64,000 nucleotides of DNA from Actinomycetota bacterium (lineage in GTDB: Bacteria; Actinomycetota; Acidimicrobiia; Acidimicrobiales; Poriferisodalaceae): positions 1-64,000 of the forward strand of contig JABABU010000007.1 of the NCBI GenBank assembly GCA_014238065.1, written 5' to 3'. A model generated the notes under the pieces. That model was not told the DNA's origin. It was given only the letters and a program-made list of their open reading frames with translations, and searched no databases. Position numbers and translations under genes: made by a program. This document shows, in pieces, positions 7,617-42,163 of this stretch (the stretch's first letter is position 1; every line of letters starts with the position of its first letter).

Positions 7617-7644
7617 TTCGACCTAAGCGACTCAGATCATGATC

Positions 7645-7675
7645 GAGCCGGCGGGCGAAAGCCCGCCGGCTCTTT
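7645..7675 (+). terminator. Rho-independent terminator of the liv operon
   Basis: A 12-bp perfect stem, GAGCCGGCGGGC (7645-7656), closes a GAAA tetraloop (7657-7660) with GCCCGCCGGCTC (7661-7672), followed by TTTC. It lies 28 bases after the binding-protein stop codon. This is the clearest terminator in the window. Confidence 0.9.
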
Positions 7676-7722
7676 CATGTCATGGGGACGGAACGACACC
7701 GCGTTCTCACCGAACTGTCGAG

Positions 7723-9378
7723 GTGATCGCTTCGCTCATCGTCGGGATTTTCAGGACTTCATCGGGCAGGTGCACTGGGTGCTCGTCCGGGTCTGCCTCC
7801 CACTCCTGGTTCGTTTCACTTGAGGCTCACCAGCTCTCATGGCCGTTCAAGCATCTCTCTCGGAGACAATGCCTCCGATCTGGTCCTCGCTGGCGCGCCT
7901 CCCTGCTCGCGCCGCTCCTCGTTGTCGGCGTCATCGCAACCTCGTGCGGATCATCGGAGCCAGAAGCGTCGGGGAATGATGAGCAGGTGGACACCGACAT
8001 AGCGATCACTCCTGCGAACGAGACGGCCCCCAGCACGGTGGAGTTCGTGCCGGAGACATCGGACGGCACGCCATTTCTCGACCTCGACCTCGACGGGAAG
8101 ACAGCGTCCTTTCTCGACACGCCAAACACGATCTTCGCGGCCATCATCGCTTCTGAGATGGGCCTGTCAGGTGAGGTCAGATGGGCACCGTGGCTACTCG
8201 ACATCGTCCTCGTCGGCGGTGCCGTAGAGACCTCTAACCAGGGCCTCCGTGCGCTGTCCACGTTGACCGGCATCAGCGAGACCGGAGACGTCATCATCGA
8301 TTTCGCCACGTTCGGAGCTTGGACACGCACAGAGGACATCGATCCAGGCATCGGGTACGAAGAGTGGAAGACGCGCCTGTACGGATGGATCATCGGAGAC
8401 GAATACGAGGCGCTGCTGTCTGACATCGATGACCGTCTTGTCCTTGCCGCGATCCAGTTCGGAGGGGTGCGCAGGGGCGACATCCCCGAACTCAACGAGC
8501 CGCGCCGGATCTCGGCCGAAGAGGCGACATTCATGACACCTGAGGAACTTGTGCTCGGCGTCTTCGTCGACAACGTTCCCGTCGCCTACCAGGTGCGCTT
8601 CTTGGCCCGTCACGAGCTGGCCAACGATCACATCGCTGGCAAGCCCGTCTCGTTGGTGTACTGCACGCTGTGTCGCAGCGCGATTCTGTTCGACAGAAAG
8701 GTCGGTGACCTTGTACTCAGGTTCGAAACTTCGGGGCTGCTGCTCGACTCGAACAAGGTGATGGTCGACGCCGAGACAGATTCGCTGTGGCATCACCTGA
8801 GCGGAGAAGCGATCTCTGGTCAAATGAAAGGCACTGAACTCGTGCGGTTCCCAGTCGAGACGACGACGTGGGCCGATTGGCTTGAGCGGCACCCGGACAC
8901 TGAAACTCTCGACACGCCGCCTCCCACGATCTTTCAGGACAATCCAGAGCGTGCTCCTCTTGTCTATGACTATTCACCTGACTCTGCTTACGCGGCCTAT
9001 TACGGGGTGGACGAACTCTGGTTTCCAGCAGTAGACCCGCCCGATGTCTACGAGCCCAAAGAAGAGGTAATCACCGTCGCACTTGATGGTGAAGCGGTGG
9101 CGTTCTCCGTCGAGGACATCGCCCGGTCGGGAGATTCGGTGCTCGAACTCGGTCGCAACCTCGTTCTCGTCGTCCCATCGAATGGGGGAGCGCGGGTGTA
9201 CGACGCGTCCGGAACCGGGCTGCAACCCGGAAGCGCTTTCGACGTCGAGTCGAGTTCACCGCACGAAGCCGTTCTCGATGATGGCTCGGTTCTACCAAGG
9301 ATCGTGAGTGGCCAGTCGTTTTGGTTCGCCTGGTATGGACTCCACCCGGAAACAGCGACGTGGCAACCAGACCGCTGA
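7723..9378 (+). CDS. DUF3179 domain lipoprotein, start uncertain
   Basis: Exported protein with a DUF3179 domain of unknown function. The family core is plain: LVYCTLCRSAILFDRKV, then LLLDSNKVMVDAETDSLW and HHLSGEAISG. A lipoprotein signal (SLLAPLLVVGVIATSC) lies at about 7885-7947, but no normal start codon precedes it in frame: the only in-frame candidates are a GTG at 7723 and an ATG at 7640 inside the terminator. An ATG at 7869 with GGAG upstream lies in another frame and would give a neat short signal peptide if a frame change occurred between it and the hydrophobic segment. A sequencing or real frameshift is therefore possible. The coordinates use the GTG. Confidence 0.75.
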   Translation: MIASLIVGIFRTSSGRCTGCSSGSASHSWFVSLEAHQLSWPFKHLSRRQCLRSGPRWRASLLAPLLVVGVIATSCGSSEPEASGNDEQVDTDIAITPANETAPSTVEFVPETSDGTPFLDLDLDGKTASFLDTPNTIFAAIIASEMGLSGEVRWAPWLLDIVLVGGAVETSNQGLRALSTLTGISETGDVIIDFATFGAWTRTEDIDPGIGYEEWKTRLYGWIIGDEYEALLSDIDDRLVLAAIQFGGVRRGDIPELNEPRRISAEEATFMTPEELVLGVFVDNVPVAYQVRFLARHELANDHIAGKPVSLVYCTLCRSAILFDRKVGDLVLRFETSGLLLDSNKVMVDAETDSLWHHLSGEAISGQMKGTELVRFPVETTTWADWLERHPDTETLDTPPPTIFQDNPERAPLVYDYSPDSAYAAYYGVDELWFPAVDPPDVYEPKEEVITVALDGEAVAFSVEDIARSGDSVLELGRNLVLVVPSNGGARVYDASGTGLQPGSAFDVESSSPHEAVLDDGSVLPRIVSGQSFWFAWYGLHPETATWQPDR

Positions 9379-30471: not shown

Positions 30472-31356
30472 ATGAGCGAAACGCTGGACAGCACCCCACT
30501 AACGAAGCAGTACCTCACCGTCAACGGCAAGCAGATGGCGTACAACGAGCAGGGTGAGGGTGACGCTGTGGTCTTCCTGCATGGGAACCCGACGTCGTCC
30601 TATTTGTGGCGCAACATCATCCCGCACGTCTCAGGCAAGGCACGTTGCATCGCGCCCGATCTCATCGGCCAGGGCGACTCGGACAAGCTCGATGACACCG
30701 GACCCGATTCGTACCGATTCGTCGAGCACCGCGAGTACCTCGATGGTCTGCTCGACCAGCTCGATCTCGGTGACCACGTCACGTTCGTCATTCACGATTG
30801 GGGCTCTGCGCTCGGCTTCGACTGGGCCAACCGGCATCGTGACCGGATCGCCGGCATCGCCTTCATGGAGGCGCTCGTCCGCCCTGTGACCTGGGACGAG
30901 TGGCCCGAAGCTGCGACGCCGATCTTCCAAGGCTTCCGCTCCGAAGCCGGCGAGCAGATGGTGATGGAGAAGAATTTGTTCGTCGAAGCCGTGCTCCCAG
31001 GTTCGATCATCCGCGACCTCAGTGACGAGGAGATGAACGAATACCGCCGCCCCTTCGTCGAGCCGGAGCACCGCCGCCCGACGTTGACGTGGCCGCGTCA
31101 GATTCCACTCGGAGGCGAGCCGGCCGATGTCGTTGCCATCGCCCAGCACTACTCGGAGTGGCTTTCGGAGTCCGACATCCCGAAGCTCTTCGTGAACGCA
31201 GAGCCAGGCGCCATCCTGACAGGACCGGTCCGCGACTGGGTACGCAGCTCGTGGCCCAACCTCACCGAGGTCACCGTCGCGGGAAACCACTTCCTGCAGG
31301 AAGACAGCCCTCACGAGATCGGCCAAGCCGTGGCCGCCTGGCTTCCCTCCCGCTGA
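30472..31356 (+). CDS. dhaA: Haloalkane dehalogenase (HLD-II, DhaA/LinB type)
   Basis: 294 aa alpha/beta-hydrolase that hydrolyses carbon-halogen bonds. All active-site residues are present: nucleophile Asp109 and halide-binding Trp110 ([12 protein letters not shown]), halide-binding Asn39 ([12 protein letters not shown]), acid Glu133 (FMEAL) and base His273 (AGNHFLQED). [20 protein letters not shown] matches the LinB/DhaA cap. By recall, similarity to LinB is high throughout. The ATG at 30472 follows AAGGAG at 30460-30465. Cytosolic. It makes an alcohol, halide ion and proton; likely natural substrates are brominated or chlorinated alkanes. Confidence 0.93.
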
Positions 31357-33012: not shown

Positions 33013-34182
33013 ATGCATACACAGGTCGCCATCATCGGAGCAGGGCCGGCGGGGATGCTGCTGTCGCACCTACTCAACCGAGCTGGGGTCGAGCACGTCG
33101 TGATCGAGCGGGTGAGTCGCGAATACGTTCTCTCTCGAATCAGAGCAGGCGTACTCGAATGGGGAACAGTCGAGACGCTTCGCGAGTGCGGCCTCGGCGA
33201 TCGAATGGATCGCGAAGGCCACGTGCACGAGACGATCAACATCGCGTGGCGCGGCGAAGAAGTGCTCACCGTCGACACCGGCGAAATGGTCGGCAAGCTG
33301 ATGATGGGCTACGGCCAGACGAACATCCAGGAAGACCTCTACAACGCGGCCGACACCGCCGGCACCACGATCTTCTTCGAATCCAGCGACGTCGAACTCC
33401 ACGACATCGCCACCGAGTCCCCGTCGGTCACCTTCATCTGCAACGGGGTCGGTGAGCGAATCGACTGCGACTTCATCGCGGGTTGCGACGGTTTCCATGG
33501 CGTCAGTCGTGTTTCGATCCCGGCATCGGTCACCACCGAGTACGAGAAGGAGTATCCATTCGGTTGGCTCGGAATCCTGTCTGAGACACCGCCACTGCCG
33601 CACCTTCTGTACGCCAACTCGAGCAGAGGGTTCGCGTTGTGTTCGATGCGTAATCAGATGCTCAGCCGGTACTACGTGCAGTGCCCGTTGACCGACAGCG
33701 TCGACGAGTGGAGCGATGACCGCTTCTGGGCCGAGCTGTTCGACCGCCTTCCGCACGACATGGCAACCCAGATCCAGACCGGTCCTTCGATCGAGAAATC
33801 GATCGCCCCGCTGAGGAGCTACGTCGCAGAACCGATGAGTTACGGCCGCTTGTATCTCGCCGGCGACGCGGCGCACATCGTTCCTCCGACAGGGGCGAAG
33901 GGACTCAACCTCGCCGTTTCCGACGTTCGCTACCTGTCTAGAGCAATCGTCGATCACTACGCCGGCGAGGACGACTACCTTGAGTCGTACAGCGCTATGG
34001 CGCTCCGCAGAGTATGGGGTGCGGTTCGTTTCTCGTGGTGGCTCACGAGTCTGTTACATCGATTCCCCGACCAGACTGCGTTCGACCAGCGAGCCCAGGA
34101 ACAGGAACTCGGGTACCTTTCGACGTCGCGTGCTGCCCAAACCGCTCTCTCCGAGCAGTATGTCGGCCTCCCCTACGAGTAG
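33013..34182 (+). CDS. pobA: 4-hydroxybenzoate 3-monooxygenase
   Basis: 389 aa flavoprotein hydroxylase that converts 4-hydroxybenzoate, O2 and NAD(P)H to protocatechuate. FAD motif GAGPAG at 9-14, the substrate-side block SRIRAGVLEWGTVETLRECG, SRYYVQCPL with the Tyr that polarises the phenol, GDAAHIVPPTGAKGLNLAV, and the diagnostic C-terminus EQYVGLPYE all fit PobA (about 394 aa). ATG at 33013. It feeds the protocatechuate that LigAB-type enzymes open. It sits between tcuA and the convergent reductive dehalogenase. Confidence 0.93.
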   Translation: MHTQVAIIGAGPAGMLLSHLLNRAGVEHVVIERVSREYVLSRIRAGVLEWGTVETLRECGLGDRMDREGHVHETINIAWRGEEVLTVDTGEMVGKLMMGYGQTNIQEDLYNAADTAGTTIFFESSDVELHDIATESPSVTFICNGVGERIDCDFIAGCDGFHGVSRVSIPASVTTEYEKEYPFGWLGILSETPPLPHLLYANSSRGFALCSMRNQMLSRYYVQCPLTDSVDEWSDDRFWAELFDRLPHDMATQIQTGPSIEKSIAPLRSYVAEPMSYGRLYLAGDAAHIVPPTGAKGLNLAVSDVRYLSRAIVDHYAGEDDYLESYSAMALRRVWGAVRFSWWLTSLLHRFPDQTAFDQRAQEQELGYLSTSRAAQTALSEQYVGLPYE

Positions 34183-34378: not shown

Positions 34379-36487
34379 TCATTTCTTCCCAGCTGCTGCC
34401 ACTCTTCGGCGCGCAGCCTCCGGTGATTCTGCATGGTCCCTACGCGCTACTGCTTCTTTGCGGATCAGCTTCACCGGAACGCCTATGGCATCACCTGGCG
34501 GGTTGAACCCAGCCTGGTACAGCGCCACCTTCTGCTTGCTGGCAATGCGGCCACCGTTCATATCGAGCTCACGGGCGTTCGTACCCTTGGATGGCTCGAT
34601 GGCTCGGCCATCCTTCCACTCGAGATCCCACCACCACTTCTTGATCGGGTTGATAGATCCGTTGCCGACCTTGTCATCCAGCATCGCGATCCACCGTCGG
34701 GTAAACGGCAGGTTGATGGCCGACCACAGAACCGATCGCTCAGCGAGCACACCTTCGATGTTGAATGGGCACGTCTTCATACACCGGCCGCAGGCCGCGC
34801 CCTTGAGGTTGCCGAGTCGGTATTTCGTGCACTTCTCCATGTCCGGCTTCCACATCTCGTAGCCGTTGAACATGATCTTGTCGCCGAACTCGATGGCTCC
34901 GCACGGGCACTCGCGGGCGCATTTCGTGCACTTGTTGCAGAAGTCCTGGAGGCCGAAATCGATGTGCTTGTCGGGCGTGATCGGCATGTCGGTGGTGACC
35001 ACGACCGACTTGAATCGCGGGCCGACGAACGGGTTGAGGACGAGCTCACCTATGCGACTCAGTTCGCCGAGGCCTGCGTGGAGCACGAGTGGGATGTGCA
35101 GCACGTCGCTCGACGCGTTCGTCTGACTGCGCGCGCCATATCCGAGCGAGCGGATGTGCTCCGCGATGATGCCCGCTATCTGAGCGCTGCGCATATACGC
35201 ACGCATCGACTGGGCCCCACTCACCCAGTCGTCTCCGCTGGCTCCTTCCATCGTTTCGTATCCCTGATCGAGCAGGATCACGATCGCGTTCCGGTGGTAC
35301 GGATCGATGACACTGCCGTCACCCCGATGCGAGTACCAGGCGTATTCGGGGACTTCACACACACCAACCATGTCGCTACCGAGGTGATGAGCCAGCGCCT
35401 TGAGAGCGTCACTGTTTCGGCTGGGGTCGGTGGTCGAAGGATGAACCTCCGGCGCGACGTCGCCGTCCTGGAATGGCACCATGCTGCGAATCTGCTGGAT
35501 GTAGGACTGTGCCTGCGGGGTCTTGTATGCAAAGACCTTCACGTCCTCTGCGAATTTCGGGCCCATGTCGCCGTTCGCAGCCCGTGGGAACCCGCCCGCC
35601 CGCACCGGTACACGCGGTACCTCGTCCTCGATGATCAACGTGGTCGGCTCGTCGACCCGTTTGATCTTCTCCATGGGGTAGCGACCCTTGTGCAACGGAC
35701 GATGATCCCCATTGAGTCGACCGATTCGGGCTCGCGTGCCGCCGCGGCCCAACAGCCAGCCGAACCCGTCGGTCGACCGCAGTCGGTCGACGATTCCCCG
35801 TCGAGCCAGCGGTGCATCGGGAGCGACGGGCGCGTTCGTGGTGACGACTGAAAGACCGAAACCAGTTCCGAGGTACGGCGCCAGAAGCTCACCGTCGACA
35901 ACTTCGACCAGGCCCACCTGAAGAGCGACCCGACCCAGATCGACGTCGGACGTCATCGCCGTGTGAGCGGTCGCGTCGAACCCGAGGTTTCGCAGGTACG
36001 AGGCAGTGATCGTCGACAGCTCGGCCGCCCTGATGTCGGCATTGGCCTGCCGAGTCCCGTCGATCCACTCGTCGCCAGGTTGAGGCTTGCGATTCTTCCG
36101 ACTGAAGGCGACAAGTGTCACGACCGCGTTCCGGTGAGGTGCCTTCCCCCCTGTCCATGCTTCGTCAGGAACGAGGCCACAGCCGACCATGTCTGCGTCG
36201 AGGAAGTAGAGACCCGACTTCAGGTTCTTCGCAACCTCGACCGGGTCGGTGGTGACAGGAGCCTCAGGTGCGATCTCGCCAGTCCTGCGTTGGTCGAAGA
36301 GGTCGAAGTACGTCGCAAAGGCACTGTCGACCGCGAGTTCGCCAGGCTCCGCGTTCTCGCGTGGCGACTCCGGCACTGCCCCGTTCAGCCCCGGCGGCTG
36401 GGAGCCGGGATCGCCGATCCGCTTCAATCGTTCGAGCGGATATGGACCGAGGTGCACAGGCCGCTTCTTGTGAGAGAACAACTTCAT
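34379..36487 (-). CDS. Reductive dehalogenase, cytosolic NpRdhA/BhbA-like, with internal duplication
   Basis: 702 aa. The C-terminal half is a RdhA catalytic domain: a cobalamin-type region around MRAYMRSAQIAGIIAEHIRS and HAGLGELSRIGELVLNPFVG, then two 4Fe-4S sets: Cys517, 520, 523 and 527 (FCNKCTKCARECP) and Cys553, 566, 569 and 573 (ACGRCMKTCPFN). The N-terminal half repeats the fold without clusters: GPYPLERLKR matches GRYPMEKIKR, and DADMVGCGLVPDEAW matches SDMVGVCEVPEYAW. No twin-arginine signal and no RdhB anchor gene, so it is cytosolic like the aerobic catabolic enzymes that debrominate 3,5-dibromo-4-hydroxybenzoate. Neighbouring pobA suits that product. The electron donor is not encoded nearby. 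Confidence 0.88.
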   Translation of the reverse strand: MKLFSHKKRPVHLGPYPLERLKRIGDPGSQPPGLNGAVPESPRENAEPGELAVDSAFATYFDLFDQRRTGEIAPEAPVTTDPVEVAKNLKSGLYFLDADMVGCGLVPDEAWTGGKAPHRNAVVTLVAFSRKNRKPQPGDEWIDGTRQANADIRAAELSTITASYLRNLGFDATAHTAMTSDVDLGRVALQVGLVEVVDGELLAPYLGTGFGLSVVTTNAPVAPDAPLARRGIVDRLRSTDGFGWLLGRGGTRARIGRLNGDHRPLHKGRYPMEKIKRVDEPTTLIIEDEVPRVPVRAGGFPRAANGDMGPKFAEDVKVFAYKTPQAQSYIQQIRSMVPFQDGDVAPEVHPSTTDPSRNSDALKALAHHLGSDMVGVCEVPEYAWYSHRGDGSVIDPYHRNAIVILLDQGYETMEGASGDDWVSGAQSMRAYMRSAQIAGIIAEHIRSLGYGARSQTNASSDVLHIPLVLHAGLGELSRIGELVLNPFVGPRFKSVVVTTDMPITPDKHIDFGLQDFCNKCTKCARECPCGAIEFGDKIMFNGYEMWKPDMEKCTKYRLGNLKGAACGRCMKTCPFNIEGVLAERSVLWSAINLPFTRRWIAMLDDKVGNGSINPIKKWWWDLEWKDGRAIEPSKGTNARELDMNGGRIASKQKVALYQAGFNPPGDAIGVPVKLIRKEAVARRDHAESPEAARRRVAAAGKK

Positions 36488-36641: not shown

Positions 36642-38198
36642 ATGCCTCGCCCGAACGTACTCCTGATCATGACCGATCAACATCGTCCAGACCACACGGG
36701 CTTCGGCGGCAACTCGACCGTCCAGACACCGACGCTCGACGATTTGGCAGCGCGGAGCATGGTATTCAGCCACGCGTTCGTGTCGAATCCGCTCTGCCAG
36801 CCCAATCGCTGCTCGATCATGACCGGCCGATACCCATCGGTCCACGGCACACGCCACAACGGGATCGCCCTTGACTGGCGCGCCAACACCTTCGTGAAGC
36901 GGCTCAGGAGCGACGGATACAGAACCGGTCTGGTGGGCAAGGGCCACCTTCAGAACTTCGGACTGGCGCCAGACCTCGCCAAGAAGATGTTCGACCAACG
37001 GTTCTCCGAACAGGCCATCGACGACGGCATGCCTCCTGGCTGGGATCACCTCGAACACATCGACCGGCACCTCCGCGAAGAGGTCGAGTATCCGGACGAC
37101 TACTACGGCTTCGACCACGTCGAGATCGTGGTTGACCATGGCGACCGATGCAGCGGCCACTACATCGGTTGGCTTCGGGACAACGGCTGTGACTGGCGCA
37201 ACATCAGAGGTTCTGAGAACGCGGCCGAGGTGTACTCCGGCTGGGGTGAAGTCCGGAAACCATCGATGCCAGAAGAGCTTTACCCGACGAGTTACGTCAC
37301 CGAGCGATCTGTTTCGTGGATCGAGCAGAGGTCCGGCGACGAAGAGCCGTGGTTCCTCCAGTGCTCGTACCCGGATCCGCACCATCCGTTCACGCCGCCA
37401 GGCAGGTACTGGGATATGTATGACCCTGCCGACATGGACATACCTGTGACGTTCAACGACCCACACACGGCGTCGGCGCCGCACCTTCAGCGACTGATGG
37501 AGGTCCGCGGTCAACTCGACGAGTCGCCGAAACTCAAGTCGCTCAACGAAGACCAGTTCCGCCATGCGTGCGCCGCCCAGTTCGGCGCCATCACCATGGT
37601 CGACGACGGCATCGCCAAGGTACTGGCCTCTCTCGAGGCTTCTGGCCAAGCCGACAACACGGTGGTCATCTTCACGTCGGACCATGGCGACATGTTCGGT
37701 GACCACGGCCTCATCTTGAAGATGTTCGCCCACTACGACGGCTGCATCAGGGTGCCGTTCACGATCTCCGGCCCTGGCATCGATGCCGGGAAGAGCAACT
37801 CTCTCATCTGCTCGCTGGACCTCGGCGACACGATTCTCGACCTGTGCGACGTCGACGGCTACTACGGCTCGCAGGGGAAGAGCCTCGTACCGGTGCTCGA
37901 TGATCCGACAATCGAGTTACGTGACGACATCCTCATCGAGGAGGACCAGATTCGCGACGGCTTGAACGCCGGCGTCCAGCCACGCATGCGGACGCTGATC
38001 ACGAAGGACGCCAGGATCACCAGATACCAGAACCTCGATCGCCACGATCTCTACGACCTCGACAACGACCCAGACGAGTGCGAGAACAAGTGGCTCGACA
38101 GCGACGCCACTTCACTGCGGCGCGAGATGAGCGACCGCCTCACCGAATCGATGATCGCCCACGCCAGCCCGAGCTTCCGCCCCACCTACATCGCGTAA
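36642..38198 (+). CDS. Type I sulfatase
   Basis: 518 aa alkaline-phosphatase-superfamily hydrolase. The formylglycine site is Cys52 in LCQPNRCSIMTGRYPSVHGT (CxPxR). The metal-binding N-terminus NVLLIMTDQHRPD and the second metal block VVIFTSDHGDMFGDHGL are intact. No signal peptide, so cytoplasmic. ATG at 36642 with GGGGAG just before it. Divergent from the reductive dehalogenase over 154 bp containing an ATCCCG/CGGGAT inverted repeat (36581-36586, 36596-36601). Substrate unknown: sulfated phenols or sugars, choline sulfate and phosphonates are all possible for the group. Confidence 0.9.
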   Translation: MPRPNVLLIMTDQHRPDHTGFGGNSTVQTPTLDDLAARSMVFSHAFVSNPLCQPNRCSIMTGRYPSVHGTRHNGIALDWRANTFVKRLRSDGYRTGLVGKGHLQNFGLAPDLAKKMFDQRFSEQAIDDGMPPGWDHLEHIDRHLREEVEYPDDYYGFDHVEIVVDHGDRCSGHYIGWLRDNGCDWRNIRGSENAAEVYSGWGEVRKPSMPEELYPTSYVTERSVSWIEQRSGDEEPWFLQCSYPDPHHPFTPPGRYWDMYDPADMDIPVTFNDPHTASAPHLQRLMEVRGQLDESPKLKSLNEDQFRHACAAQFGAITMVDDGIAKVLASLEASGQADNTVVIFTSDHGDMFGDHGLILKMFAHYDGCIRVPFTISGPGIDAGKSNSLICSLDLGDTILDLCDVDGYYGSQGKSLVPVLDDPTIELRDDILIEEDQIRDGLNAGVQPRMRTLITKDARITRYQNLDRHDLYDLDNDPDECENKWLDSDATSLRREMSDRLTESMIAHASPSFRPTYIA

Positions 38199-39321: not shown

Positions 39322-39389
39322 GAGCTCAAACTAGAGGTCGATGTGCTCGGACTGGAAGACTGGTGAATCACACACAGGAGGTGATGCCA

Positions 39390-40541
39390 ATGCCCTATGC
39401 GCAGGGCAGGACGTACTTCGACGCCGATAGTCACATCATGGAGCGACCCGACTTCATCCGCGACTACGCGGACGACGAACTGAAGACCAAGCTGGCGCCG
39501 ATCGTCGGCGGAAATCAGGGCAAGACATCGACTGGCTTCACTGAGATCATTCGACGAGAAGGCCACGCCGAAGACAAGGTCGCCCAGATGGTCGCCCTTG
39601 GCGACCAGCTCATCTCAGGACCGAAGGGCTACCAGGCGCTCGGAGCCTTCAACCGTGAAGAGCGAACGATGGCCCTCGATCAGCTCGGCTTTCACAAGCA
39701 GCTGGTCTTCACGACGTTCAGCCCAGGGCACGCACTGCATCATCCCGACACCGATGTCATGTACGGAGCGGCCGAGGCTCACAACAGAGCCATGTCCGAC
39801 TTCTGTGAGAACGACGACCGCCTCATGGGCGTCGGCATGCTCCCGCTCGAGGACCCCGCCTGTGCCCTGACCGCTGCCGCACAGATCATCGACCTCGGCC
39901 TGGCCGCGGCCTGGGTCGCACATCGCGACTGCGGAGGTCGGTCGCCCGGCCACGACGATCTCGATCCCGTGTGGGCCCTACTTGCAGACGCCCAGGTCCC
40001 CTTCGTTCTACATGTCGGAGGCCACCCGCTGCAGTTGCCCACGGCATGGATGAACACCGGTCGGCCCACTCCCGCCGACTGGCAGGGCGGCGGCGAGAAC
40101 GTGCGCGGCAAGGACATGATCGCCCTGCACCACAACGTCGAACTCTTTCTCGGCGCCATGATCTTCGACGGCGTGTTCGAACGGCACCGCGCGCTGAGAG
40201 GCGCTGCAGTCGAACTCGGAGCCGGGTGGGTTCCGAGCTGGTTACGCCGCCTCGAATGGTCGGCAGCGATCTGGAAAAAGGAACCTGAACTCGGCTCGCT
40301 GAGCAGGACACCGACCGCGATCGTCAGCGAGCACCTCGCATTTACGCCCTATGTGTACGAGGACGTCGGCGAACTCATCCGCGAGTCGCACGCAGGGCTG
40401 TATCTCTTCTCGAGTGACTACCCGCACCACGAGGGAAGCAAGAACCCGATCGAGCGCTTCGAGGGCTTCCTAGATGGCGCATCGGACGACGACAAGTCAA
40501 AGTTCTACAGTGAGAACTTCGAGCGAATCTTTGGGGACTGA
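39390..40541 (+). CDS. Amidohydrolase family protein (ACMSD-like TIM barrel)
   Basis: 383 aa. The metal-binding start FDADSHIME, the barrel strand FVLHVGGHPLQLP and the C-terminal FSSDYPHHEGSKNPIERFEG are the marks of amidohydrolase-2 proteins, which decarboxylate or hydrolyse aromatic and ring-opened acids. The ATG at 39390 lies 5 bases after AGGAGGTGA (39376-39384), the best ribosome binding site in the region. It is first in a compact run: 1 base before the deiodinase-like selenoprotein and then the TauD gene. A role on the deiodinated or ring-opened product is inference. Confidence 0.88.
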   Translation: MPYAQGRTYFDADSHIMERPDFIRDYADDELKTKLAPIVGGNQGKTSTGFTEIIRREGHAEDKVAQMVALGDQLISGPKGYQALGAFNREERTMALDQLGFHKQLVFTTFSPGHALHHPDTDVMYGAAEAHNRAMSDFCENDDRLMGVGMLPLEDPACALTAAAQIIDLGLAAAWVAHRDCGGRSPGHDDLDPVWALLADAQVPFVLHVGGHPLQLPTAWMNTGRPTPADWQGGGENVRGKDMIALHHNVELFLGAMIFDGVFERHRALRGAAVELGAGWVPSWLRRLEWSAAIWKKEPELGSLSRTPTAIVSEHLAFTPYVYEDVGELIRESHAGLYLFSSDYPHHEGSKNPIERFEGFLDGASDDDKSKFYSENFERIFGD

Positions 40542-40542
40542 C

Positions 40543-41229
40543 GTGACCGACACCGAACCGAAGGCCACCGCCTCAGGCCCCGATCCAGCGGACATCGAGG
40601 CGATGGTCGCGCAGTTCACGCCGGCCGACTCGGCCATGACCTACACCGAGGTCCATGCACTCGAGCGAACCAGGCAACTACGGACTGCCGACGTTGAAGC
40701 CGGCGACGAGGCTCCCGACTTCGAGCTGCCGGTGTTCGATTTCTCAACAGGAGCCAGAGTCGAGACCGATGAGGTCTTCCACCTTCAGAGCGTCGCCGCG
40801 AACACCCCCGTCGCTCTGATATTCGGTAGCTACACCTGACCTCCTTTCCGGCGCCAGTTGGGCGCCCTCCACGACATGGCCGCCAAGTACGACGGTCAGA
40901 TCCGATTCCTCGTCGTCTACATCTGCGAAGCCCATCCCACAGATGGATGGCAGGTCGACATGAACATCGACGACAACGTACTGTTCGCCGATCCCACGTC
41001 CGATGAAGAGCGGGTCGAAGTCGCCACAGCATGCGCGTTGCGTCTGAACATCGACATGCCCGTCGTCATCGATCCGATCGACGACCGCCTGGCCTCCGCG
41101 TACGGTGCGCTGCCCGATCGCTTGTACCTCGTAGGCACCGATGGCCGGATCACGTTCCAGGGCGACGAAGGGCCGTGGGGATTCAATCCACAGGACCTCG
41201 AAGCCGCCATCGCGTCAGCGATCGGCTGA
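40543..41229 (+). CDS. Iodothyronine deiodinase-like selenoprotein (in-frame UGA at 40837-40839)
   Basis: 228 aa with selenocysteine at position 99. Two open segments, 40543-40836 and 40840-41229, lie in the same frame, split by a single TGA. Read through, they give IFGSYTUPPFRRQLGALHD and FLVVYICEAHPTDGW, which parallel the vertebrate deiodinase active site (FGSCTUP) and the following EAHxxDGW block; Glu129 and His131 are kept. The fold is thioredoxin-like. No membrane segment at the N-terminus, unlike animal enzymes, so cytosolic. GTG start 1 base after the amidohydrolase; TauD follows after 4 bases. Family role: reductive removal of iodine from aromatic rings. A frameshift-free sequencing artefact or pseudogene is the alternative, judged unlikely. 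Confidence 0.85.
40850..40866 (+). promoter_or_regulatory. Candidate bacterial SECIS hairpin
   Basis: GGCGCC (40850-40855), loop AGTTG (40856-40860), GGCGCC (40861-40866): a 6-bp perfect stem whose apical loop begins 16 bases after the UGA. The loop has G in its second position followed by U. Known bacterial SECIS elements need a short upper stem, a G in the first two loop positions and a UGA-to-loop distance of about 16-37 bases, so this fits at the lower limit. It lies inside the coding sequence, as bacterial SECIS elements do. Confidence 0.6.
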
Positions 41230-41233
41230 CGTC

Positions 41234-42163
41234 GTGAAGGCGGTCCGTATCGGACCAGTTCTCGGAGCCAGCGTCACCGACGTCGATCTGTCAGATCTCT
41301 CCGACGCCGGGGCTCGTGAGATCGAAACGCTGCTGGCCGAACACGAGGTGCTCGTGTTTCCCCACCAACCGATCTCGGCAGAGGCCCAGCTCCGCTTCGG
41401 ACGGTTGTTCGGGGCGTTGGCGGTGTCGCCGTTTTCCCCGACCGCAGCCGAGGCGCCGGAACTTATCGTTCTCGACTACTCGAAGGACACGTCTCCTCCA
41501 CTCACCGACATCTGGCATGCCGATGAGACCTATAGACCAGCTCCGCCGAAGTTCACGATTCTGAAGGCGATCATCACACCCGAGCTCGGCGGCGACACGA
41601 TGTTCTGCTCGATGCGAGCCGCGTACGAGGGCCTGAGCGACCGGCTGCAACGTCTCATCGCTGGCCTGACCGCACACCACGGGTTCGGACGGTTCGCCAA
41701 AATGTTCGCCGGCGACTCGGAAGGGATGAAGCGCCTCCACGCCGTCGAGGAGGAGTTCCCCCACCCGAGCCATCCTGTGGTGTCGGTCCATCCGTTCACC
41801 GGCAAACGAGTCCTGTACGTCAACCGACACTTCACCGAACACATCAACGAGTTACCAGACGACGAGGGTCGAGCCATCCTCGAACTGCTGATCCAGCAGA
41901 CCACGCGACCCGAACATCAGCTACGCGTGTCGTGGGACCCTGGGACCCTCGTCATGTGGGACAACCGATCGGTGCAACATTACGCACCGCACGACTACTG
42001 GCCGCAGCGCCGCCGCATGGAACGCGTGACCGTCGAGGGCAACCCACCCATTCCTGACGGCGAAGACGGAGCCGTCACCTGGAGCCCCGTTCGAGTCGAG
42101 GACGTCACCCAACCCGACCGGCCCGACCTCGAAACCCCGCGCCGTCCCCACGAACGCCCTTAG
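41234..42163 (+). CDS. TauD/TfdA family dioxygenase
   Basis: 309 aa. Iron ligands His95/Asp97 (DIWHADETYR), a distal His in SVQHYAPHDYW and the 2-oxoglutarate Arg in RRRMERVT. The GTG at 41234 is used, 4 bases after the selenoprotein stop; the frame is open upstream only as a shadow of that gene. The organisation suggests co-transcription with the amidohydrolase and the deiodinase-like gene. The C-terminus carries a Pro/Asp-rich extension of about 30 residues. Substrate unknown. Confidence 0.89.
   Translation: MKAVRIGPVLGASVTDVDLSDLSDAGAREIETLLAEHEVLVFPHQPISAEAQLRFGRLFGALAVSPFSPTAAEAPELIVLDYSKDTSPPLTDIWHADETYRPAPPKFTILKAIITPELGGDTMFCSMRAAYEGLSDRLQRLIAGLTAHHGFGRFAKMFAGDSEGMKRLHAVEEEFPHPSHPVVSVHPFTGKRVLYVNRHFTEHINELPDDEGRAILELLIQQTTRPEHQLRVSWDPGTLVMWDNRSVQHYAPHDYWPQRRRMERVTVEGNPPIPDGEDGAVTWSPVRVEDVTQPDRPDLETPRRPHERP

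Follow-up and report, generated by a model that had tools for sequence, protein, structure and literature searches.

Does a bacterial gene that is interrupted by a single TGA at the very position at which animal iodothyronine deiodinases carry selenocysteine (Sec) encode an intact selenoprotein and, if so, what might the protein do? Such a gene is located in the window, i.e. the 64,000-nucleotide stretch of DNA analyzed here (Table 1). An earlier note on this DNA had pointed to the coincidence and claimed that both halves of the frame form one thioredoxin-like domain. Indeed, the frame starting with GTG at 40543 continues to its stop codon when this one TGA is read through. The TGA is embedded in FGSYT-U-PPFRRQ and is followed by YICEAHPTDGW. 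The Pfam family PF00837 (iodothyronine deiodinase) aligned to the read-through product across the TGA (E = 1.2e-29, 103.7 bits against a cut-off of 27), and the modelled fold most closely matched those of mouse Dio2 and Dio3. AhpC-TSA was a secondary Pfam match (9.2e-06). A six-frame search of the 3.94-Mb genome (94.7% complete) with PF00837 returned this gene, with its one internal TGA, as the sole match. Upon inspection of the translated N-terminus neither a signal peptide nor a membrane anchor was evident.

Table 1. Features of the window discussed in the text (nucleotide positions in the window).
Feature	Position	Strand	Basis and remarks
Haloalkane dehalogenase	30472..31356	+	NF002938, 450 bits vs 241; no other above cut-off in this genome
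4-Hydroxybenzoate 3-monooxygenase PobA	33013..34182	+	TIGR02360, 593 bits vs cut-off 539; adjoins the reductive dehalogenase
Catabolic reductive dehalogenase, NpRdhA type	34379..36487	-	TIGR02486, 189 bits vs cut-off 160; 4ras, E 6e-198, full length
Sulfatase	36642..38198	+	PF00884; between dehalogenase and operon
Amidohydro_2 family protein	39363..40541	+	PF04909, 1.1e-10; PDB relatives; first gene of the apparent operon
Deiodinase-like selenoprotein gene	40543..41229	+	228 aa, GTG start, TGA stop; translation with TGA as Sec, PF00837, AlphaFold2 model and PDB matches
In-frame TGA, selenocysteine 99	40837..40839	+	TGA or Cys at the same codon in homologues; Sec genes in the genome
Bacterial SECIS-type hairpin, GGCGCC(AGUUG)GGCGCC	40850..40866	+	Comparative and covariation analysis
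Codon of Cys164, candidate resolving cysteine	41032..41034	+	Alignment: 24/24 Sec forms, 3/8 Cys forms
TauD/TfdA-family alpha-ketoglutarate dioxygenase	41234..42163	+	PF02668, 1.5e-61; PDB relatives TauD and RdpA; GTG start; third operon gene

Automatic annotation would call two fragments here, and the TGA could be a nonsense codon in a decayed gene or a sequencing error. The frame is split by it, and other genes of the window as well as the deiodinase gene itself end at TGA. The codon was examined in homologues. From 84,980 species genomes, 54 loci were retrieved. At least 30 non-identical bacterial homologues had TGA at the same codon and the others examined had Cys; among deiodinase-like homologues no codon other than TGA, TGC or TGT was seen at this site. 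Most loci with recognizable deiodinase motifs were of the TGA form. These were found in Actinomycetota, Chloroflexota, Acidobacteriota, Planctomycetota, Latescibacterota, Myxococcota, Neomarinimicrobiota, a deltaproteobacterial MAG, a Rhodospirillaceae MAG and others; TGC or TGT forms were present, e.g., in Opitutaceae, Marimonas, some Planctomycetota and a Bdellovibrionales MAG. Compared with the homologue L023, amino-acid identity was 56% upstream and 58% downstream of the TGA. On both sides third codon positions were the most variable, and GC content by codon position was nearly equal. Selection is alike on both sides of the TGA.

In bacteria a SECIS hairpin would be expected just downstream of the UGA, and the earlier note had described one of six base pairs starting 11 bases after it. 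This hairpin was found as described; its loop begins 16 nt past the UGA and carries G at position 2. On its own it was unimpressive. Folded as a single sequence, it did not outperform dinucleotide-shuffled versions (z = -0.33), and against synonymous-codon resampling p was about 0.024. The hairpin alone was therefore rejected as proof, and it became convincing only because of the comparative data. A SECIS-type hairpin was present in 30/30 TGA homologues and in 0/17 Cys homologues, whereas codon resampling expects 6.2/30. We required at least four contiguous pairs (score threshold 12), a loop of 3–6 nt located 16–22 nt from the UGA, and G in one of the first two loop positions; the loop and stem limits were fixed after a first look, and the counted sequences are related to each other. 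Stem pairing was register-specific: in the two register groups 50/55 and 65/65 cells were paired, compared with at most 30/55 and 35/65 when the register was slid, and two-sided changes occurred in 5/5 and 3/5 stem pairs. This is good evidence for an RNA structure under selection, the stems being in conserved coding sequence.

The genome also has the means to use such an element. The search for Sec genes suggested by the earlier note recovered tRNA-Sec (anticodon UCA, 67 bits against a gathering score of 47) and selD (366 bits, cut-off 125) as well as selA (383 bits, cut-off 268) and selB (296 bits, cut-off 242), which adjoin each other on contig 10 with selA immediately upstream. In selD the catalytic position itself is an in-frame TGA (GAG-U-GCK); the gene, on the minus strand of contig 53 at 88268–89185, is thus a second selenoprotein gene of this genome. 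SelB was above cut-off across the taxonomic family of the window. A genome-wide reassignment of UGA is not supported: the neighboring genes and the deiodinase gene end at TGA, and the tRNA with the UCA anticodon is tRNA-Sec. A lack of Sec genes, or relatives with random codons at the site and an eroded downstream part, had been named beforehand as evidence against a selenoprotein; both were looked for and neither was found. With TGA at this codon in 30 or more genes from many phyla, conserved protein sequence on both flanks, a covarying SECIS and a complete Sec machinery, decay or sequencing error is highly improbable and was rejected. We are almost certain that the UGA at 40837 is decoded as Sec. 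SelB and tRNA-Sec would accomplish this at position 99, directed by the hairpin at 40850–40866.

What kind of protein is made? An AlphaFold2 model based on 32 homologues had a mean pLDDT of 94.6 and a pTM of 0.89. The top two Foldseek matches in the PDB were mouse Dio2 (TM 0.80) and Dio3 (TM 0.74, both by target length), followed by ResA/DsbE-type proteins and peroxiredoxins. Similarly, a profile search of PDB sequences returned Dio3 (4tr3, 8.9e-27) and Dio2 (9h48, 2.1e-24), the next match being at 1.7e-4. In the alignment the Dio3 residues S167, T169, U170, Y197, E200, H202, W207 and R260 correspond to S96, T98, U99, Y126, E129, H131, W136 and R193. Proton-relay and substrate-binding roles have been proposed for these residues of Dio2 and Dio3 (PMC11592359). 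S96, T98, Y126, E129 and H131 were invariant in 32/32 aligned proteins, and Trp136 and Arg193 were kept in most of them. Deiodinase fold and active site can hardly be doubted. Two features of Dio3 are missing: in place of His219, for which a part in the proton relay has been proposed, the window protein and most Sec forms have Pro, and the carboxylate clamp Arg275/Lys is not kept, the R275 position being variable. Therefore, binding of a thyronine is unlikely.

A further difference concerns the cysteine that would take part in the re-reduction step. In human DIO1 the proximal C124 forms a selenenyl sulfide with Sec (PMC9141512). The equivalent position, -2 relative to Sec, is Tyr97 in the window protein and Y, F, W or I in all aligned Sec forms; Dio2, too, is devoid of a proximal Cys and has Ala. 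Instead, Cys164 is located on the helix 154–167. From its conservation pattern Cys164 is a candidate resolving residue, a role for and against which the chances appear about equal.

How is the gene distributed? Within the taxonomic class, 4/395 genomes had a match that exceeded the family cut-off and contained a TGA. The three class genomes other than the present one have the same TGA, twice in FGSYT-U-PPFR and once in FGSYT-U-PHFR. Among the 36 other genomes of the family none had a Sec deiodinase, and one (G417) had only a weak, TGA-free match. Because of this rarity in family and class, the Sec deiodinase gene is sporadic and was probably acquired by a lineage already decoding Sec. Relatives on plasmids or in viruses were absent from PLSDB and IMG/VR at the sensitivity used. 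In a phylogenetic tree the window protein grouped with L022, L023 and L052 (support 99/92), and Sec and Cys forms were intermixed. Mouse Dio2 and Dio3, represented by catalytic-core fragments on a long branch whose exact place is uncertain, fell among the bacterial UPPF/EAHP forms and were separated with 98/91 from a second bacterial clade, which includes EAHPG forms. That animal thyroid-hormone deiodinases were recruited from the bacterial UPPF lineage, and that the UPPF Sec forms are reductive dehalogenases of natural iodo- and bromophenols with a distal resolving Cys, is a rather unlikely extension of these data.

A second bacterial PF00837-like clade (L096 and L117; related L089, L091, L111 and L116) has Sec in U-P-Y-C or U-P-[IL]-T and an EAHPGE or QAHPG loop, with SECIS-like hairpins in those loci that were checked. 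It probably represents the UxxC type of a 2026 review. In the Planctomycetota loci L058, L060, L068 and L072 and in the Cys forms L080, L081 and L083 the deiodinase domain is located C-terminally in longer frames of about 390–480 aa (longer still in L068). Marimonas lutisalis, a cultured and named species, has two Cys-form homologues, L077 and L078 (FGSYTCP[IV]F), and is a convenient source for enzyme work.

Next, the genomic surroundings were considered. The GTG of the deiodinase gene is 1 nt past the stop of the amidohydrolase gene, and the TauD gene starts 4 nt past the deiodinase stop. Judging from this spacing, all three genes appear to be transcribed together, the TGA-containing one being second. 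The coupling to an amidohydrolase and a TauD oxygenase, as claimed earlier, is a real gene arrangement; however, it is specific to this genome and not shared by any other Sec locus fetched. A reductive dehalogenase gene of the NpRdhA type, one of two over cut-off in the genome, is 4 kb away. Together with PobA it would point to the breakdown of ortho-halophenols or halo-4-hydroxybenzoates. In an alignment to 4ras, identified as NpRdhA from PMC7565698, its product keeps S422, Y426, K488 and R552. The block of reductive dehalogenase, PobA and sulfatase is also adjacent in another family member (G430). Enzymes encoded across the region include two sulfatases, a PhyH dioxygenase and a protein of the carotenoid-oxygenase family besides further catabolic ones. 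Further away, a DUF3179 protein is encoded at 7639–9378 near branched-chain amino acid ABC transporter genes.

The association is not a general one. NpRdhA-type genes occurred in about half of the genomes of the family, which have no Sec deiodinase; these relatives had 52–76% identity and often no PobA alongside. No conserved partner genes emerged among 532 ORFs compared from the window and the deiodinase loci, and relatives of RdhA, PobA, the amidohydrolase or TauD were not found beside the other Sec-deiodinase loci that were fetched. The amidohydrolase belongs to a paralogous family common in relatives, with no deiodinase or TauD nearby. The argument from the dehalogenase neighborhood is drawn from a single genome and arose post hoc; co-location of the deiodinase gene with RdhA/PobA is suggestive.

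Because thyroid hormones are themselves ortho-iodophenols, a deiodinase-type active site and an RdhA/PobA pathway would fit one chemical class. The catabolic RdhAs characterized so far are reported to use ortho-halophenols as substrates; for one of them, 3,5-diiodo-4-hydroxybenzoate and iodophenols are reported as well (PMC10463259). We favor, by a little more than even chances, the explanation that the protein is a soluble Sec deiodinase of the thioredoxin fold which acts as a reductive dehalogenase and feeds the RdhA-PobA route. Of its parts, reductive dehalogenation activity is an evenly balanced proposition, and the link to the RdhA/PobA pathway, which is drawn from gene location, is slightly more doubtful than that. 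Mechanistically, the selenolate of Sec99 would take iodine, or perhaps bromine, as X+ from the carbon ortho to a phenolic OH, and a proton would be provided by the network of Ser96, Thr98, Tyr126, Glu129 and His131, as proposed for Dio3. Resolution of the selenenyl halide by Cys164 would then yield a selenenyl sulfide, to be reduced by thioredoxin or a cellular thiol. The role would be to strip iodine or bromine from natural halophenols such that the ring enters the neighboring RdhA-PobA (4-hydroxybenzoate) route; the amidohydrolase and TauD enzymes may act on the same substrate family.

Two other functions have to be weighed. The protein might be a Sec-dependent antioxidant, similar to a peroxiredoxin or thiol peroxidase, which shares the deiodinase fold and has its present neighbors by coincidence. 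The secondary AhpC-TSA match, the peroxiredoxins and ResA/DsbE proteins which follow Dio2 and Dio3 in Foldseek and the lack of common neighbors among other Sec homologues are compatible with this, and a redox role has been suggested for bacterial members, as bacteria were expected to be without thyroid hormone (PMC1088965). Yet the peroxiredoxin motif PxxxT/SxxC is absent, with Leu at -7 and Ser at -3 (-7 is L, V or I in all aligned forms), the deiodinase-specific insertion EAHPxDGW is nearly invariant, and the dehalogenase-rich neighborhood is left unexplained. We consider an antioxidant a serious, though the less probable, candidate. A Sec-containing thiol-disulfide oxidoreductase of the ResA/thioredoxin kind for protein or small-thiol targets would agree with the same ResA/DsbE-type structures and with the UPYC (UxxC) motif in the distant clade of L096 and L117. 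The window protein and its clade, however, have U-P-P-F and neither CxxC nor UxxC, and the N-terminus has no evident export signal or anchor. This makes an oxidoreductase improbable.

The question of what bacterial deiodinase homologues do dates from 2005. The window gene encodes an intact, small and soluble candidate enzyme, and its neighborhood suggests ortho-halogenated phenols and hydroxybenzoates as candidate substrates. If it dehalogenates, reductive dehalogenation could proceed with selenium and without cobalamin, and the enzyme would serve as a soluble model of the thyroid deiodinases, which are membrane-anchored; it would also have a bearing on the origin of the animal enzymes.

Bacterial deiodinase-like selenoproteins as such are not new. 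Four Sec and six Cys sequences from the Sargasso Sea were reported in 2005 (Zhang, Fomenko and Gladyshev, PMC1088965), and 22 Sec and 21 Cys sequences followed from GOS in 2008 (PMC2398784). No functional study or measured activity of any bacterial member was found in the open-access literature searched. The window protein shares with the earlier sequences PF00837, Sec at the deiodinase position, a bacterial SECIS and the existence of Cys homologues. The earlier examples were mostly metagenome fragments, whereas here a whole genome, its Sec genes, SECIS covariation, the pattern of C164 and the neighboring dehalogenase genes are documented. The 2026 review lists the motif UxxC (PMC13188914), which does not fit the animal-like UPPF of the window protein and its clade and is met only in the distant L096 and L117. 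NCBIfam NF038285, 'deiodinase family protein', matched residues 52–224 (E = 5.3e-52); as an equivalog it was rejected because 177 bits are below the cut-off of 250 and the N-terminal half of the 347-residue model was unmatched. NpRdhA, BhbA and JtRdhA would share the chemical class of ortho-halophenols, yet they are cobalamin/Fe-S enzymes unrelated to the thioredoxin fold. With animal Dio1-3 (4tr3, 9h48) the protein has in common the fold, GSxTUPPF, the EAHPxDGW loop, the Ser/Thr/Tyr/Glu/His relay and an Arg at the position of Dio3-R260. It differs by having no evident N-terminal membrane anchor, Tyr at -2, neither His219 nor Arg275, an additional C164 that none of the aligned Sec forms lacks, and a SECIS within the coding region rather than in the 3'UTR. 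Re-reduction would accordingly differ from the animal enzymes, with the candidate distal C164 in place of the proximal C124. New here are the absence of the proximal Cys combined with C164 in 24/24 aligned Sec forms, and an NpRdhA-type reductive dehalogenase with PobA at a distance of 4 kb.
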